Positions 10,155-20,397 of a DNA stretch of 64,000 nucleotides are shown here, in pieces. Each line of letters starts with the position of its first letter. The stretch's first letter is position 1. This stretch comes from Flavobacterium ammoniigenes (GTDB lineage Bacteria; Bacteroidota; Bacteroidia; Flavobacteriales; Flavobacteriaceae): positions 992,001 through 1,056,000 of the forward strand of contig NZ_AP025184.1 in NCBI RefSeq assembly GCF_020886055.1, read 5' to 3'. A program made the position numbers and the translations under genes. The notes under the pieces were generated by a model, which saw only the letters and a program-made list of their open reading frames with translations, had not been told where the DNA came from and did not search any database.

Positions 10155-10267
10155 TTTTTGCCAAGATTTTTTCCTGCTGTACGCTCTATCTTTTATTCTG
10201 AAACCCAGAATAAAAGGATGCCGCTTCCATCAGGGCTAAAGGGCAAAAAGGGATTTTTTTGCCAAGA
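10155..10267. repeat. Dispersed intergenic repeat (copy A) flanked by a 12-bp direct repeat
   Basis: An 89-base block (10167-10255) contains a strong hairpin, CTTTTATTCT / AGAATAAAAG, inside outer segments CTGTACGCTCTATC and GATGCCGCTTCCATCAGGGC. The dodecamer TTTTTGCCAAGA occurs immediately on both sides (10155-10166 and 10256-10267), which looks like a target-site duplication. In reverse orientation the outer parts match copy D at 48727-48770 (for example 11 of 15 bases of GAGCGTACAGCAGGA). It sits in the metH leader region. Confidence 0.6.
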
Positions 10268-10319
10268 AATAAACAACACAACAGTTTGATTGAGTGCCTG
10301 TAAGGCCAAAATAATAAAT

Positions 10320-15044: not shown

Positions 15045-15078
15045 AAAAAAATCCAGTACCTAAAGACTGGATTTTTTA
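15045..15078. terminator. Bidirectional terminator between metF and gldA
   Basis: ATCCAGT (15051-15057) pairs with ACTGGAT (15066-15072). The stem has an A-run on its left and a T-run on its right, so it can end transcription from either side of this convergent pair. Confidence 0.75.
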
Positions 15079-15972
15079 TTTAGTAACTTCTCGAAATACC
15101 GTTTCAAGATTTTTATTTTTTTGATTCAGCTGTAACGTTTTTAGTCCATTGGCGGTAGCAAAATCAAAAACAACCGGGCGCATGTCTTTGTCAGTTGCAA
15201 AAGTCAATTCCCAAATGGCGCCATCAATATTGGAATAAGAACTTATATTTTCGATAGTGGCTATTTGAGTTTCGTTTACTTCTTGATCAAACTCCACTCC
15301 GATAATTTGGGTAGCCGACTCGCTAATGAGTTTTTCTAATTGTTTATCAGCTACAATTTTTCCTTTGTCAATAATTATAACGCGGTCGCAAATCGCTTCT
15401 ACTTCTTGCATGATATGTGTAGAAAGGAAAACAGTTTTGTCTTTACCAGCATTTTTTATCACATTTCGAATTTCTACTAATTGATTGGGATCCAAACCTG
15501 TGGTGGGTTCGTCCAAAATCAAAACGTCAGGATTGTGCAATAAAGCATTGGCTAAACCCACACGCTGGCGATACCCTTTGGACAATTGACCAATTTTTTT
15601 GTGACTTTCAGTAGTCAGTCCGGTCAATTGAATCACTTCTTCAATTTGGGATTGGGCTACCTTATACACATCGGCATTGAAGGCTAAATATTCCCGAACG
15701 TACAAATCCAAATACAACGGATTGTGTTCTGGCAAATAGCCAATTGAAAGTTGGACGTCCTTTTGTTGGGAATTCACATCAAAACCATTGACTTTAGCAC
15801 TGCCTTCGTCAGCGGTCAAATAAGTCGTTAGAATTTTCATCAAAGTCGATTTTCCAGCTCCGTTTGGACCAAGAAAACCCACAATTTCGCCCTTGTTAAT
15901 GGTAAAAGAAATTGCATCAAGTGCTTTTTGTGTTCCGTAACTTTTAGATATATTATGAATGGCTATTGACAT
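15076..15972 (-). CDS. gldA: Gliding motility ABC transporter ATPase GldA
   Basis: A 298-residue ABC ATPase. Walker A GPNGAGKST is at 35-43, the signature LSKGYRQ near 130 and Walker B VLILDEPTTGLD near 150-161. The order and wording of the N-terminus (MSIAIHNISKSYG) and the C-terminal region match GldA of flavobacterial gliding machinery, which works with the permease GldF and with GldG; those genes are not in this window. The start at 15972 is chosen because the 25 residues upstream do not look like an ABC domain. A generic ABC-2 ATPase is the alternative. Confidence 0.85.
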   Translation of the reverse strand: MSIAIHNISKSYGTQKALDAISFTINKGEIVGFLGPNGAGKSTLMKILTTYLTADEGSAKVNGFDVNSQQKDVQLSIGYLPEHNPLYLDLYVREYLAFNADVYKVAQSQIEEVIQLTGLTTESHKKIGQLSKGYRQRVGLANALLHNPDVLILDEPTTGLDPNQLVEIRNVIKNAGKDKTVFLSTHIMQEVEAICDRVIIIDKGKIVADKQLEKLISESATQIIGVEFDQEVNETQIATIENISSYSNIDGAIWELTFATDKDMRPVVFDFATANGLKTLQLNQKNKNLETVFREVTK

Positions 15973-16160
15973 GGTGTTGTATTTGCTACAAAAGTAAACA
16001 GAAAAAGCAATTAATTGTTGTTGCAACCGATTTGAATTTTGATGCAATTTTCAAATTCTTAAAAAACAGGGAATAAATAAACGTTTATTTAATCAATAGT
16101 TAAATAATAGTGTGTTTAACAAAGAATTTCGTTTTTGTTGTATAAAAGCATTGGTTTTTC

Positions 16161-16191
16161 TTGGAGGAGATGAAATAAATGCTAATATTTG
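16161..16191 (+). promoter_or_regulatory. Promoter of the pheA leader
   Basis: A TTG at 16161-16163 lies 23 bases before AATATTTG (16184-16191), close to the Bacteroidota TTTG/TAnnTTTG pattern. Transcription would begin near 16197, about 25 bases before the leader peptide start. The imperfect -7 (AA for TA) makes this moderate. Confidence 0.45.
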
Positions 16192-16221
16192 CACCGTAAT
16201 TATTTACAAAACAAGCAGGCA

Positions 16222-16278
16222 ATGTGTAATAACCGTTTTTATTTTAGCAATACTTATTACTTCTTTTTTAAGAAGTAA
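16222..16278 (+). CDS. Phe/Tyr-rich leader peptide of the aromatic amino acid operon
   Basis: An 18-codon ORF, ATG to TAA, reads MCNNRFYFSNTYYFFFKK. Eight of 18 residues are aromatic (five Phe, three Tyr), with YYFFF just before the end. It lies 88 bases upstream of pheA, and its last codons form the left and right arms of hairpin 1:2 of the attenuator described separately. Ribosome stalling on Tyr or Phe codons would report shortage of exactly the end products of the operon. A 62-codon ORF overlapping in another frame is less convincing. The call rests on composition, position and RNA folding. Confidence 0.85.
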   Translation: MCNNRFYFSNTYYFFFKK

Positions 16279-16359
16279 GGATTGTTATAGGGTTATTTGA
16301 AAAATTAAAAAGCAAATTAAAACAATATACAATCCTGATGAAAATCAGGATTTTTTTTT
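16257..16359 (+). promoter_or_regulatory. Transcription attenuator upstream of pheA
   Basis: Segment 1 TTACTTCTT (16257-16265) pairs with segment 2 AAGAAGTAA (16270-16278). Segment 2 continues as AGGATTGT-T-ATA (16278-16289), which can pair with TATACAATCCT (16326-16336) as antiterminator. That region overlaps AATCCTGAT (16331-16339), which pairs with ATCAGGATT (16344-16352) across a GAAA tetraloop and runs into eight or more T. The terminator ends seven bases before pheA. The antiterminator and terminator exclude each other, as in trp/phe attenuators of Proteobacteria. Confidence 0.85.
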
Positions 16360-16365
16360 GAATTT

Positions 16366-17193
16366 ATGGCAACAAAAATTGCAATACAAGGAATACAAGG
16401 TTCATTCCATCATCAAGTGGCTCAGGAGTACTTCGGGAAAGAGGTGGCTGTGGATGAATGTTTGTCTTTTGAAGAATTGGTGTCGAGCCTATTGTCTGGA
16501 GAATCAGATCAGGCGGTAATGGCTATCGAAAATTCGATCGCAGGCCCTATTATTCCGAATTATGCTTTGATTGACAAGAATAATTTGCACATTATTGGCG
16601 AACATTATTTGGATATTCAACAGAATTTAATGGCTTTGAAAGGTCAGACGATTCAAGATATTGAAGAGGTGCATTCGCATCCAATGGCTTTGCTGCAATG
16701 TATGGAGTTTTTGAAACAGTATCCACATATTAAAATTGTGGAAGACAAAGACACTGCAGAAACGGCGCGAAGAATTCACGAAAAGCAATTGAAAGGCATT
16801 GCAGCTATTGCCAGTAAAGTGGCTGCTGAAATGTATGATTTAGAAATTTTGGCACCGGAGATTCAGACGATTAATAATAACATGACCCGTTTTGTAATTA
16901 TTGATAAGAAGCAATCGGTTTTGTCAACTAATGAAATTAATAGAGCGTCGATTAAATTCGAATTGGATCACAAACGTGGCAGTTTAGCAGCCGTGCTGAA
17001 TGTTATGAGCGATTGCAAATTGAATTTAACCAAAATCCAGTCGTTACCCAAAATCGAAACTCCTTGGAAATATTCGTTTTTTGTGGATGTGACCTTTGAG
17101 AAATATGAAGATTATGCCAAAGCAAAAGCCTTGATAGATATTATGGCGGAGTATTTCAAAGTTTTGGGAGAGTACAAAAATGCAAAACCCTAA
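16366..17193 (+). CDS. pheA: Prephenate dehydratase
   Basis: A 275-residue enzyme converting prephenate to phenylpyruvate. The N-terminal AIQGIQGSFHHQVAQEYF and the catalytic-region NNMTRFVII (TRF motif) are typical. Residues from about 188 form an ACT domain (ASIKFELDHKRGSLAAVLNVM), the usual site of Phe feedback control. It is the monofunctional form; chorismate mutase is fused to the DAHP synthase three genes downstream. It is the first gene after the attenuator. Confidence 0.94.
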   Translation: MATKIAIQGIQGSFHHQVAQEYFGKEVAVDECLSFEELVSSLLSGESDQAVMAIENSIAGPIIPNYALIDKNNLHIIGEHYLDIQQNLMALKGQTIQDIEEVHSHPMALLQCMEFLKQYPHIKIVEDKDTAETARRIHEKQLKGIAAIASKVAAEMYDLEILAPEIQTINNNMTRFVIIDKKQSVLSTNEINRASIKFELDHKRGSLAAVLNVMSDCKLNLTKIQSLPKIETPWKYSFFVDVTFEKYEDYAKAKALIDIMAEYFKVLGEYKNAKP

Positions 17194-17239: not shown

Positions 17240-18385
17240 ATGATTGCAACAGCAAAACGTTTAGAGATAGTTGAAGAATATTATTTCTCTTCCAAATTGA
17301 GAGAAGTACGACAATTGGCTGCAGAAGGGAAACCCATTATTAATATGGGTATCGGAAGTCCTGATTTGAAGCCTTCGCAAGCTGTTATTGACGCGGTGGT
17401 TTTGGCCATGCAGGAAGAAAATGCACACCAATACCAAAGCTATCAAGGAGTTCCTGAATTGCGTCAAAGTATGGCTGATTTTTATCAGAATAACTTTGGG
17501 GTAGCAATGAATCCGACTACTGAAATTTTGCCTTTAATGGGTTCCAAAGAAGGGATCATGCATATTTCTTTGGCTTTCTTGAATGAAGGAGACCAAGTGT
17601 TGATTCCTAATCCGGGTTATCCAACCTATACATCGGTGACGAATTTAGTGGGTGCAGTTCCGGTGTATTATGATTTAAAAGAAAGTACCAATTGGGAACC
17701 GGATTTTGAGGCTTTGGAACAATTGGATTTATCTAAAGTAAAAATAATGTGGGTGGGTTATCCGCACATGCCAACGGGAGCTAGAGGCAGTTTGGCTTTA
17801 TTTGAAAAATTAGTGGCTTTTGCCAAAAAGCATAGCATTTTGTTAGTGAATGACAATCCGTATAGTTTTGTTCTGAATGACAATCCGATGAGTTTGTTGC
17901 AAGTCGAAGGTGCCAAAGAAGTAGCTTTAGAATTGAATTCGTTGAGTAAAACCTTCAATATGGCGGGCTGGCGTGTAGGAATGGTATTAGGAAATGCCGA
18001 TTGTATTGATGCTGTGTTGAAAGTGAAAAGTAATATGGACAGCGGTATGTTTTATGGCATCCAAAAAGGAGCCATCGCCGCTTTGAAAAGTGATGCTTCT
18101 TGGTTTGATTCGATGAATGCTATCTATAGAAAGCGTCGAGTTTTAACTGAACAATTGGCTGAAAAATTAGGTTGTGAAGTCTATAAAGAAGGAGTAGGAT
18201 TGTTTGTTTGGGCAAAATTGCCAGCAGGAATTAGCTCTGCAGAACAATTCATCGACCAAATATTATATCAAAAACATATTTTCATAACTCCGGGAACTAT
18301 TTTCGGAAGTAATGGTGAAGGATACATTCGATTTGCACTTTGTGTGAAAGAAGAAAAAGTACAAGAAGCAATAGATAGATTTTAA
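17240..18385 (+). CDS. Class I/II PLP-dependent aminotransferase
   Basis: A 381-residue fold-type I aminotransferase. Lys237 in SLSKTFNMAGWRVG is the PLP lysine, and GIGSPDLKPS, NPGYPTY and the C-terminal RFALC are family features. Between pheA and tyrA it most likely transaminates phenylpyruvate and hydroxyphenylpyruvate, or prephenate itself, to finish Phe and Tyr. Substrate cannot be read from sequence; aspartate or LL-diaminopimelate aminotransferases share the fold. Confidence 0.88.
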   Translation: MIATAKRLEIVEEYYFSSKLREVRQLAAEGKPIINMGIGSPDLKPSQAVIDAVVLAMQEENAHQYQSYQGVPELRQSMADFYQNNFGVAMNPTTEILPLMGSKEGIMHISLAFLNEGDQVLIPNPGYPTYTSVTNLVGAVPVYYDLKESTNWEPDFEALEQLDLSKVKIMWVGYPHMPTGARGSLALFEKLVAFAKKHSILLVNDNPYSFVLNDNPMSLLQVEGAKEVALELNSLSKTFNMAGWRVGMVLGNADCIDAVLKVKSNMDSGMFYGIQKGAIAALKSDASWFDSMNAIYRKRRVLTEQLAEKLGCEVYKEGVGLFVWAKLPAGISSAEQFIDQILYQKHIFITPGTIFGSNGEGYIRFALCVKEEKVQEAIDRF

Positions 18386-18389
18386 TGCA

Positions 18390-19247
18390 ATGAAAGTAGT
18401 TGTAGTAGGTATCGGTTTAATTGGAGGTTCAATGGTTTTAGACATCAAAGCATTGCATCCAGAAGCGACTATTTTGGGTATGGATGCCAATGAAAATCAT
18501 TTGCAACAAGCTATTGATTTGGGGGTGGTTGAAAAAGCAGGAACGTCTGAAGATTTAGCCGATGCTGATTTTGTGATTGTTTCGGTTCCGGTAGATGTTG
18601 CTTTGGTAGTATTGCCTCAAGTATTGGATGCTGTTGGAGAGAATACCATTGTTTTTGAAGTAGGTTCTACCAAGTTGCCTATTTGCGAAGCGGTAGCCAA
18701 TCATCCAAAACGACGCAATTATATTGCAACACATCCTATTGCAGGAACCGAGTTTTCAGGACCGACGGCAGCCATAAAAGGATTGTTCCAAGGGAAAACA
18801 AATATAATTTGTGAGGTAGAAAAAACGACCTTCAAGTTGCAGGAAAAAGCCTTACAATTGTTTACAGCTATAGGAATGCGAATTCGCTATATGGATCCGC
18901 AATCGCATGATAAACATATAGCTTACGTATCGCATTTGTCTCATATTAGCTCGTTCATGTTAGGTAAAACAGTAATTGACAAAGAGACCGAAGAGCAAGA
19001 TATTTTTGATATGGCGGGCAGTGGATTTGAAAGTACGGTGCGTTTGGCTAAAAGTTCCCCAGCCATGTGGACACCGATTTTCAAGCAGAACAAACAACAA
19101 GTGGTGAATACCTTAGAAGAATACATTTCTAATTTGTCAAAGTTTAAAACCTTGTTAGAAAATGAGGATTATGATGCGATTTATCAAGAAATGCAAAGTG
19201 TCAATAAAATAAAAGAAATATTAAACGGAATAAACATTAAAAAGTAA
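18390..19247 (+). CDS. tyrA: Prephenate dehydrogenase
   Basis: A 285-residue NAD(P)-dependent enzyme that makes hydroxyphenylpyruvate for tyrosine. The Rossmann start VVVVGIGLIGGSM, the HPIAGTEFSGP segment and the helix-rich HIAYVSHLSH region are typical. It starts four bases after the aminotransferase stop, within the same operon. No C-terminal ACT domain is visible, so feedback control probably sits elsewhere, for example in the attenuator and the DAHP synthase. Confidence 0.93.
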   Translation: MKVVVVGIGLIGGSMVLDIKALHPEATILGMDANENHLQQAIDLGVVEKAGTSEDLADADFVIVSVPVDVALVVLPQVLDAVGENTIVFEVGSTKLPICEAVANHPKRRNYIATHPIAGTEFSGPTAAIKGLFQGKTNIICEVEKTTFKLQEKALQLFTAIGMRIRYMDPQSHDKHIAYVSHLSHISSFMLGKTVIDKETEEQDIFDMAGSGFESTVRLAKSSPAMWTPIFKQNKQQVVNTLEEYISNLSKFKTLLENEDYDAIYQEMQSVNKIKEILNGINIKK

Positions 19248-19258
19248 TTTTAGAAAAG

Positions 19259-20341
19259 ATGGAGAATAGTAAAGAAATGAGAAATTGGTTGGATGCATTC
19301 AAATTAGATCATCCATTAGTAATTGCAGGACCATGTAGTGCTGAGACTGAAGAGCAAGTATTAAAAATTGCTCACGAATTGAAAGATTCAGATGTAAGTG
19401 TGTTTAGAGCAGGAATCTGGAAACCAAGAACTCGTCCAGGAGGATTTGAAGGTGTAGGAGAAATTGGATTGAAATGGTTGAAAAAAGCGAAAGAAGAAAC
19501 AGGTTTGCTAATGGGTACTGAAGTAGCTACTGCAGCACACTGTAAATTAGCTTTGGAATATGATATCGATGTATTATGGGTTGGAGCGCGTACAACTGCT
19601 AATCCATTCGCAGTGCAAGAAATTGCAGATACTTTGAAAGGAACAGATAAAATCGTTCTGATTAAAAATCCAGTAAACCCAGATATGGCTTTATGGTTAG
19701 GTGGTGTAGAGCGTTTGTATGCAGCAGGTATTAGAAAATTAGGAGTGATTCATAGAGGGTTTTCTACCTACCAAAAAACAAAATACAGAAACATTCCAGA
19801 ATGGCAAATTGCTATCGAATTGCAAAATAAATTCCCTGATTTGCCTTTGATCATTGACCCATCGCATATTACAGGAAACCGTGATATGATTTTGGAAGTG
19901 ACTCAAGAAGCCTTGGATTTGAATTACGACGGTATGATTATCGAAACACATATTGATCCAGACAATGCTTGGAGTGATGCTGCTCAACAAGTAACACCAG
20001 CTGCTTTGAAACAAATTTTCAAAGATTTGAAAATCAGAAAGCAAACAGGAGATACGGCTGATTTTGAAAACAAAATGACAAAATTAAGAGCGAACATCGA
20101 CGTGTTAGACGCTAACCTTTTAGAGTTACTAGGAAAACGTATGCAAGTGGCTTCTGAAATTGGACAAGTAAAAAAAGACGCTAACGTTGCGGTTTTGCAA
20201 AACAGTCGTTGGAATGAAATCCAAGCAAAAATGACTGCTGAAGGTGCTAAAAAAGGATTGTCTGAAGAATTTATCATTAAATTGTTCAAAGGCATTCACC
20301 AAGAAAGTATCGAACAACAAGAAAAAATATTGAATTCATAA
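19259..20341 (+). CDS. Bifunctional DAHP synthase / chorismate mutase
   Basis: A 360-residue fusion. Residues to about 260 are a type I-beta DAHP synthase (VIAGPCSAETEEQ, FRAGIWKPRTRPGGFEGVG, GVIHRGFSTY, DPSHITGNRD). The last 90 or so form an AroQ chorismate mutase (LRANIDVLDANLLELLGKRMQVASEIGQVKK). It catalyses the first shikimate step and the branch step to prephenate, feeding the two prephenate enzymes in the same operon. In related fusions the mutase domain helps regulate the synthase. It is the last gene before a clear terminator. Confidence 0.95.
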   Translation: MENSKEMRNWLDAFKLDHPLVIAGPCSAETEEQVLKIAHELKDSDVSVFRAGIWKPRTRPGGFEGVGEIGLKWLKKAKEETGLLMGTEVATAAHCKLALEYDIDVLWVGARTTANPFAVQEIADTLKGTDKIVLIKNPVNPDMALWLGGVERLYAAGIRKLGVIHRGFSTYQKTKYRNIPEWQIAIELQNKFPDLPLIIDPSHITGNRDMILEVTQEALDLNYDGMIIETHIDPDNAWSDAAQQVTPAALKQIFKDLKIRKQTGDTADFENKMTKLRANIDVLDANLLELLGKRMQVASEIGQVKKDANVAVLQNSRWNEIQAKMTAEGAKKGLSEEFIIKLFKGIHQESIEQQEKILNS

Positions 20342-20362
20342 TTCGTATTTTTCTATTTATAG

Positions 20363-20397
20363 AATCCTCACAGTTGAATCAATTGTGAGGATTTTTT
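20363..20397 (+). terminator. Terminator of the aromatic operon
   Basis: AATCCTCACA pairs with TGTGAGGATT around a short loop and runs into six T. It lies 22 bases after the DAHP synthase stop. Confidence 0.8.

Follow-up and report, generated by a model that had tools for sequence, protein, structure and literature searches.

A very likely ribosome-mediated attenuator upstream of pheA in Flavobacterium ammoniigenes and its relatives

Introduction

Are the aromatic amino acid genes of Flavobacterium ammoniigenes controlled by a ribosome that translates a short leader in front of pheA, and which amino acids would such a ribosome sense? In the classical pheA attenuator (Phe_leader, RF01859), a leader with Phe codons and alternative hairpins precedes pheA, and the arrangement described here follows the same logic. 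The general mechanism of attenuation has been described (PMC1183508). A reading of this locus made from the DNA letters alone (the sequence-only reading) had proposed that a Phe/Tyr leader peptide acts in this way on four genes. The region belongs to a 64-kb window (the whole stretch of DNA that was analysed) of the 2.26-Mb genome, and we compared it with regions upstream of pheA in other Bacteroidota. We consider it very likely that the pheA leader is a ribosome-mediated transcription attenuator, and the best reading of its codons is that it would sense both Phe and Tyr.

The leader region and the aromatic gene cluster

The leader ORF lies where the sequence-only reading had placed it, and eight of its codons are aromatic, five being Phe and three Tyr (Table 1). 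Segment 2 starts on the last base of the leader stop codon and can pair with segment 3, and this 2:3 pairing is extended through a one-base bulge (16287-16289 with 16326-16328). Segment 3 in turn overlaps the 5' arm of the terminator, the T run of which ends six bases before the pheA start codon at 16366. The 1:2 and 2:3 pairings and the GAAA-capped terminator with its T tract were all located as claimed, and to these known parts we add the promoter-like element and the inner antiterminator stem, both missing from the sequence-only reading. Complementarity similar to that of the inner stem was seen by eye in some relatives.

Table 1. Features of the pheA leader region and neighbouring genes (positions in the window)
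Feature	Position	Strand	Remarks
Upstream neighbour ORF	15076-16047	-	Divergent from pheA
Promoter-like element TTG-N19-TAATATTTG	16161..16191	+	Read from sequence
Leader ORF MCNNRFYFSNTYYFFFKK	ATG 16222 to TAA 16276-16278	+	18 codons
1:2 protector hairpin	16245-16265 paired with 16270-16287	+	-13.8 kcal/mol (computed fold)
Segment 2 AGGATTGT, antiterminator 5' arm	Core 16278-16285, extended to 16289	+	
Inner antiterminator stem	16292-16299 with 16313-16323	+	Computed fold
Segment 3 ACAATCCT, antiterminator 3' arm	Core 16329-16336, extended from 16326	+	
3:4 intrinsic terminator	16331-16339 / 16344-16352, T run 16351-16359	+	9-bp stem, GAAA loop
pheA, prephenate dehydratase	16366..17193	+	Pfam PF00800 above cut-off
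Class I/II aminotransferase	17240..18385	+	Pfam PF00155 above cut-off
tyrA, prephenate dehydrogenase	18390..19247	+	NF006307 above cut-off; PF02153 and PF20463
DAHP synthase / chorismate mutase	19259..20341	+	PF00793 and PF01817
Terminator-like hairpin 3' of the last aromatic gene	20361..20395	+	16 pairs

The upstream neighbour, which we take to be an ABC-transporter ATPase, is divergent from pheA, and the terminator before pheA therefore faces transcripts that begin in the leader region. The TAATATTTG part of the promoter-like element exceeds by one base the -7 consensus TAnnTTTG given by Guerin et al. 2021 (PMC9723704). The element is common to the closest relatives, and other relatives carry TACATTTG or TACATTCG at the same place; the leader transcript would be expected to start near 16196. 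Downstream, the four aromatic genes announced by the sequence-only reading are adjacent, and their identities are backed by the Pfam and NF006307 matches. Since they are separated by just 46, 4 and 11 bases and the last one is followed by a terminator-like hairpin, they look like one operon and are presumably cotranscribed. That hairpin was judged solely by its pairs and its location; a terminator scan around it gave three sites against 2.7 in shuffles, which alone is no evidence.

Elsewhere in the window, between 10290 and 14021, adjacent ORFs of 338 and 895 aa presumably represent a split metH and are followed by what we take to be a metF-like ORF. A Flavo-1 RNA (RF01705, 80.1 bits) lies at 10166-10241 on the minus strand, just before the ORF at 10290.

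When the 152-base leader region was shuffled with dinucleotides preserved, 30 of 5000 shuffles contained an ORF of 10-45 codons that starts with ATG and has at least eight aromatic codons; the leader ORF by itself is unusual, not extreme, relative to chance. The fold of 16194-16362 has a z of -3.25, and one of 200 shuffles folds equally well; leaving out segment 4, z is just -1.89 and five of 200 shuffles are as good. Two terminator-like sites, representing one hairpin read on both strands, were found in 801 bases against 0.4 expected. The strong evidence for an attenuator at pheA comes from conservation.

Conservation in the genus, the family and the phylum

Regions upstream of pheA were taken from the loci of three PheA searches together with 80 further stretches. 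A search of named genomes gave 246 candidate stretches, and among the best 80 of these the PheA of the window has up to 99% identity to named Flavobacterium records. The genus search gave a PheA match in 103 of 150 genomes and the family search in 178 of 199, and 70 loci of the latter were examined (30 listed ones, two of them already in the set, and 40 picked by hand). After removal of 24 duplicates, 190 distinct regions reaching 250 bases or more upstream of pheA were retained. Three loci with shorter upstream sequence were left out (L074, L106 and L114, the last with hairpins visible by eye), as were L150 and L151, the start of which was not located by the script and the upstream regions of which hold no leader by eye. 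ORFs were picked from ATG starts only, GTG and TTG starts having given overlong or wrong ORFs in some rows; the ORF picked in L051, L116 and L212 is probably in the wrong frame.

In 187 of the 190 genus and family regions a terminator lies no more than 140 bases from pheA, the exceptions being L149, L209 and L223, and in every one of these 187 loci an ORF with an ATG start includes five or more Phe, Tyr or Trp codons. Three loci without a recognisable segment 3 core (L142, L204 and L228) were left out of the further counts. In the remaining 184, the leaders hold 8.8 aromatic codons on average against 1.3 in dinucleotide shuffles, and at least seven such codons are present in 183 of them, compared with 2.5% of shuffles. 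Typical leader peptides are MSNNRFYFSNTYYFFFRK in Flavobacterium and MTTTVYYTYFNNWFYFFFSKRNEALYV and MTKKYFWNGFYFYFFFKRGTGLL in other genera; their order, length and C-terminus vary between clades, while the aromatic content and the RNA pairing are kept. The sequence-only reading had suggested aligning this region across relatives, and in that comparison both the aromatic leader ORF and the terminator proved conserved, confirming that what it had observed at the pheA leader is real. As a separate observation, L149, L150 and L151, which have no attenuator upstream, encode the three full-length PheA proteins of lowest identity in the genus search (41-49%).

We also examined 20 more distant Bacteroidota loci (16 of the same class and four of the same phylum), hand-picked from the 172 of 198 genomes with a match. 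Thirteen have an ORF with at least nine aromatic codons and a terminator 21-39 bases further on, with a predicted 2:3 duplex of -10 to -22 kcal/mol, taken without a swap control. An aromatic ORF with no terminator by the scan criterion is present in L245, L251 and L253, no ORF was found in L243, and the ORF/terminator arrangement was not found in L235, L236 and L254.

Covariation of the pairing partners

The five-base core of segment 3 differs by clade (ATCCT, ATCCC, GTCCC, GTCTC, GTCCT and GTTCC), and segment 2 varies along with it, mainly as AGGAT, GGGAT, GGGAC and GAGAC/GAGGC. A 2:3 helix of at least 6 bp is formed by the locus's own partners in 177 of 184 loci (it is absent from seven) and in 23.1% of 23,710 swaps between core classes, a comparison which, like the other swap comparisons and alignment counts below, ignores relatedness. 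The rule used here (five-base core and extension) was set after a six-base core had fared badly on the Flavobacterium classes; that first trial gave 67 of 184 loci at the 5.5 threshold. When whole regions were swapped as duplexes (55 arms), the own mean was -8.8 and the permuted mean -7.1, and none of 10,000 permutations was as low; for single loci, the rank of the own region varies between first and last. The 1:2 duplex had an own mean of -9.52 and a permuted mean of -7.96 (sd 0.15, 150 distinct). Its own pairing beat the swapped one in five of the six core classes, and in the small GTCCT class (three loci) it was not clearly better.

Alignment A1 contains 52 Flavobacterium rows, 51 of them distinct. 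Of the 84 sequences in the commonest core class it takes 16, and the 36 sequences of the two remaining Flavobacterium classes are all included. Pairing is kept in 95.8% of the 2:3 cells and 100% of the 3:4 cells, and the covariation scores of both helices exceed all 500 shuffles and all slid versions. Double changes between GC and AU coincide in the two helices at a shared segment 3 base. One pair in 2:3 and three in 3:4 are double-changed; the single 2:3 pair is changed in 14 rows, possibly by one event, and the last 2:3 pair is broken in 12 rows. Counts of double-changed pairs and of pair types were not above those of the shuffles, 499 and 492 of 500 reaching the count for 2:3 and 69 and 298 of 500 for 3:4. 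The independent changes behind the covariation are few, perhaps fewer than ten. A second alignment, A2 (63 sequences of other genera), was left uncounted, segment 2 being off by one column between classes. In both the swap test and A1, the antiterminator and the terminator share segment 3 and are mutually exclusive. The sequence-only reading had looked for compensatory changes in all three helices; in these tests the 2:3 and 3:4 partners co-change, and those of 1:2 do so less clearly.

Predicted effect of ribosome position

In our stall model, the ribosome masks 12 bases, counted from where the A-site codon begins, and the nascent RNA extends to 16341. For the window, P(2:3) was 0.82-0.94 with the A site anywhere from the start through the last Phe codon, and past that codon it was 0.09, 0.00 and 0.00 at the two Lys codons and the stop; footprints of 9-16 bases shifted this edge by one codon either way. 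Applied to 187 loci, the model gave upstream pairing of segment 3 a mean probability of 0.95 with the ribosome at aromatic codons and of 0.06 with the ribosome at the stop, and this probability fell by at least 0.3 at the stop in 181 of the loci. No such drop was seen in six loci. In the window itself (L001) and its nearest relatives L004, L005 and L006, a weak alternative partner of segment 3 persists (in the window it has -3.8 kcal/mol, compared with -10.8 for the terminator), and in L051 and L116 the wrong ORF was probably picked. On nascent RNA, then, the stall position is predicted to decide the fold, with a computed switch near the last Phe codon.

At equilibrium on full-length RNA, the terminator is favoured in every computed state, including those in which the ribosome is stalled (P(3:4) 0.94-0.96), and the switch must therefore be kinetic, with the antiterminator forming first. 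With no ribosome, segment 3 is paired upstream with a mean probability of 0.83, and this value was below 0.3 in just 12 of 187 loci, so that termination on untranslated RNA is not predicted in most loci; in most of them, 1:2 is predicted not to keep segment 2 off segment 3. The no-ribosome state of the window depends on the RNA ends that are assumed.

We propose that RNA polymerase would start near 16196 and that a ribosome would initiate on the leader at 16222. Under a shortage of charged tRNA-Phe or tRNA-Tyr, the ribosome would stall on a Phe or Tyr codon (16237-16269) and open 1:2; 2:3 would then pair before segment 4 is made, no terminator would form, and the downstream genes would be transcribed. 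When Phe and Tyr are plentiful, the ribosome would arrive at the stop codon and cover segment 2, 3:4 would form, and transcription would stop before pheA. Leader translation, termination in vivo and the response to Phe and Tyr are steps that we infer. The leader stops before segment 2 in the clade of the window and just after it in many others (L030, L118 and L164 among them), which was one of the less expected points; a ribosome at the stop codon should cover segment 2 in either case. The sequence-only reading seems right on mechanism as well as on observation, as far as sequence can tell.

Amino acids probably sensed by the leader

Another less expected point was the Trp codon in most leaders of other genera. 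It is present in 52 of the 66 picked leaders outside Flavobacterium (among L154-L233), and it stands beside the Phe/Tyr run, as in NNWFYFFF, in 51 of these 66 compared with 25 of the 121 inside the genus. That a single ancient attenuator family spans the Bacteroidota and reads all three aromatic amino acids in most non-Flavobacterium genera is a tentative proposal, to which we give slightly less than even chances.

The attenuator might read mainly Phe, in which case the Tyr and Trp codons would be incidental. A Phe-rich leader is what the classical pheA attenuator has, and the mean Phe count of the leaders studied here is 5.5, against Tyr counts of 2.6 in Flavobacterium and 3.5 elsewhere. We regard this as unlikely, for at least two Tyr codons are found in 120 of 121 Flavobacterium leaders and 64 of 66 others, the gene set makes Tyr too, and the folding model switches at any of these aromatic codons. 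Sensing of Phe and Tyr together is the reading that we prefer for the window.

Putative translation of the leader frame

Codons differing by a single base were compared pairwise among 28 distinct Flavobacterium leader cores (114 loci, promoter look-alikes excluded). The differences were synonymous in 67% of cases in the leader frame and in 14% and 24% in the other two, and synonymous change prevails solely in the leader frame. The same genome has further leaders of this kind. Upstream of hisG (L188, minus strand) there is a leader, MISNLLHHHHLLNCSQAMC, with HHHH, and upstream of trpE (L189) there is MITNTNNTWWWNNLRQSS with WWW, each followed by a terminator; the stall model gave 0.99-1.00 at the His codons and 0.16 at the stop for hisG, and 0.96-0.98 at the Trp codons and 0.02 at the stop for trpE. 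A Thr-rich ORF lies upstream of thrA (L190), with no terminator by scan. A second genomic copy of the pheA element was considered and rejected, the two further matches being short terminator-like pieces at unrelated genes.

These results bear on whether a ribosome operates the switch at all. Terminator/antiterminator pairs also occur in switches operated by proteins or ligands, and T-rich sequence, as in this region, yields TTT and TAT codons easily, as the 5000 shuffles illustrate; an RNA-binding protein or a ligand might act on the hairpins while the aromatic ORF is incidental. We hold this to be very improbable. First, aromatic leaders accompany the terminator without exception in the genus and family loci. 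Second, synonymous change prevails in the leader frame and in no other. Third, the hisG and trpE leaders hold the matching codons. Finally, no Rfam family reached its gathering score in the pheA leader of the window or in 17 related pheA leaders. A plain constitutive stop or small RNA source combined with a functional micropeptide is hardly credible: small RNAs with terminators are common, and the C-terminal part of the peptide is alike within clades (SKRNEALYV, KRGTGLL) though it overlaps segment 2, but the T run ends six bases before the pheA start codon, the hairpin overlaps a co-changing alternative helix, and what clades keep is aromatic content and pairing, not the order, length or C-terminus of the peptide.

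Relation to known systems

Attenuators of Bacteroidetes/Chlorobi are reportedly mentioned by Vitreschak et al. in 2004. Bacteroid-trp (RF01692), listed by Weinberg et al. 2010 (PMC2864571), is a trp operon leader in Bacteroidetes and is matched by the trpE leader of this genome (66 bits, cut-off 49); it differs from the pheA leader, which does not match it, in its Trp codons and in its operon. Phe_leader (RF01859) scores 16.6 bits on the pheA leader (E 3.5), below its cut-off of 55. Most of what aligns is the part with the terminator, and the pheA leader is unlike RF01859 in having Tyr codons also and four genes downstream. His_leader (RF00514), which concerns another amino acid, weakly matches the region of the hisG leader, on the same strand as that leader (31.2 bits, below the cut-off of 49).

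For F. psychrophilum, the main text of Guerin et al. 2021 (PMC9723704) reports a structured 5' element upstream of pheA that is present in other Flavobacteriaceae genera and has no Rfam match, together with clues for leader-peptide attenuation before amino-acid operons. Gene and family are the same as here, and the main text gives no peptide, segments, amino acid or covariation for the element; judging from the gene name, it is probably the pheA leader described here. ORFs reminiscent of leader peptides have been noted in B. thetaiotaomicron (PMC7366714). Within the literature on Bacteroidetes attenuators and leader peptides, which here included the main text of PMC9723704, we found no description of the pheA leader peptide or its covariation. 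The sequence-only reading knew of no described example in Flavobacteriia; this has to be revised in view of the pheA element named in the main text of PMC9723704 and of RF01692, a Bacteroidete trp leader. Its interest in leader translation without a Shine-Dalgarno site also loses force, Bacteroidota being naturally without Shine-Dalgarno sequences according to PMC6847099. The pheA attenuator is a known kind of switch that was, going by the main text of PMC9723704, partly anticipated in print in 2021.

Conclusion

The comparison offers evidence that classical leader-peptide attenuation acts on the aromatic genes of a phylum that initiates translation without Shine-Dalgarno sites. It identifies codons and segments as targets for mutation, and natural variants, with or without Trp and with the stop on either side of segment 2, allow the rules of sensing to be tested. 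The pheA leader would justify an Rfam family. If one family reading all three aromatic amino acids does extend through the Bacteroidota, a shortage of any of the three would switch the aromatic genes on, and Flavobacterium clades like that of the window would be without the Trp input.
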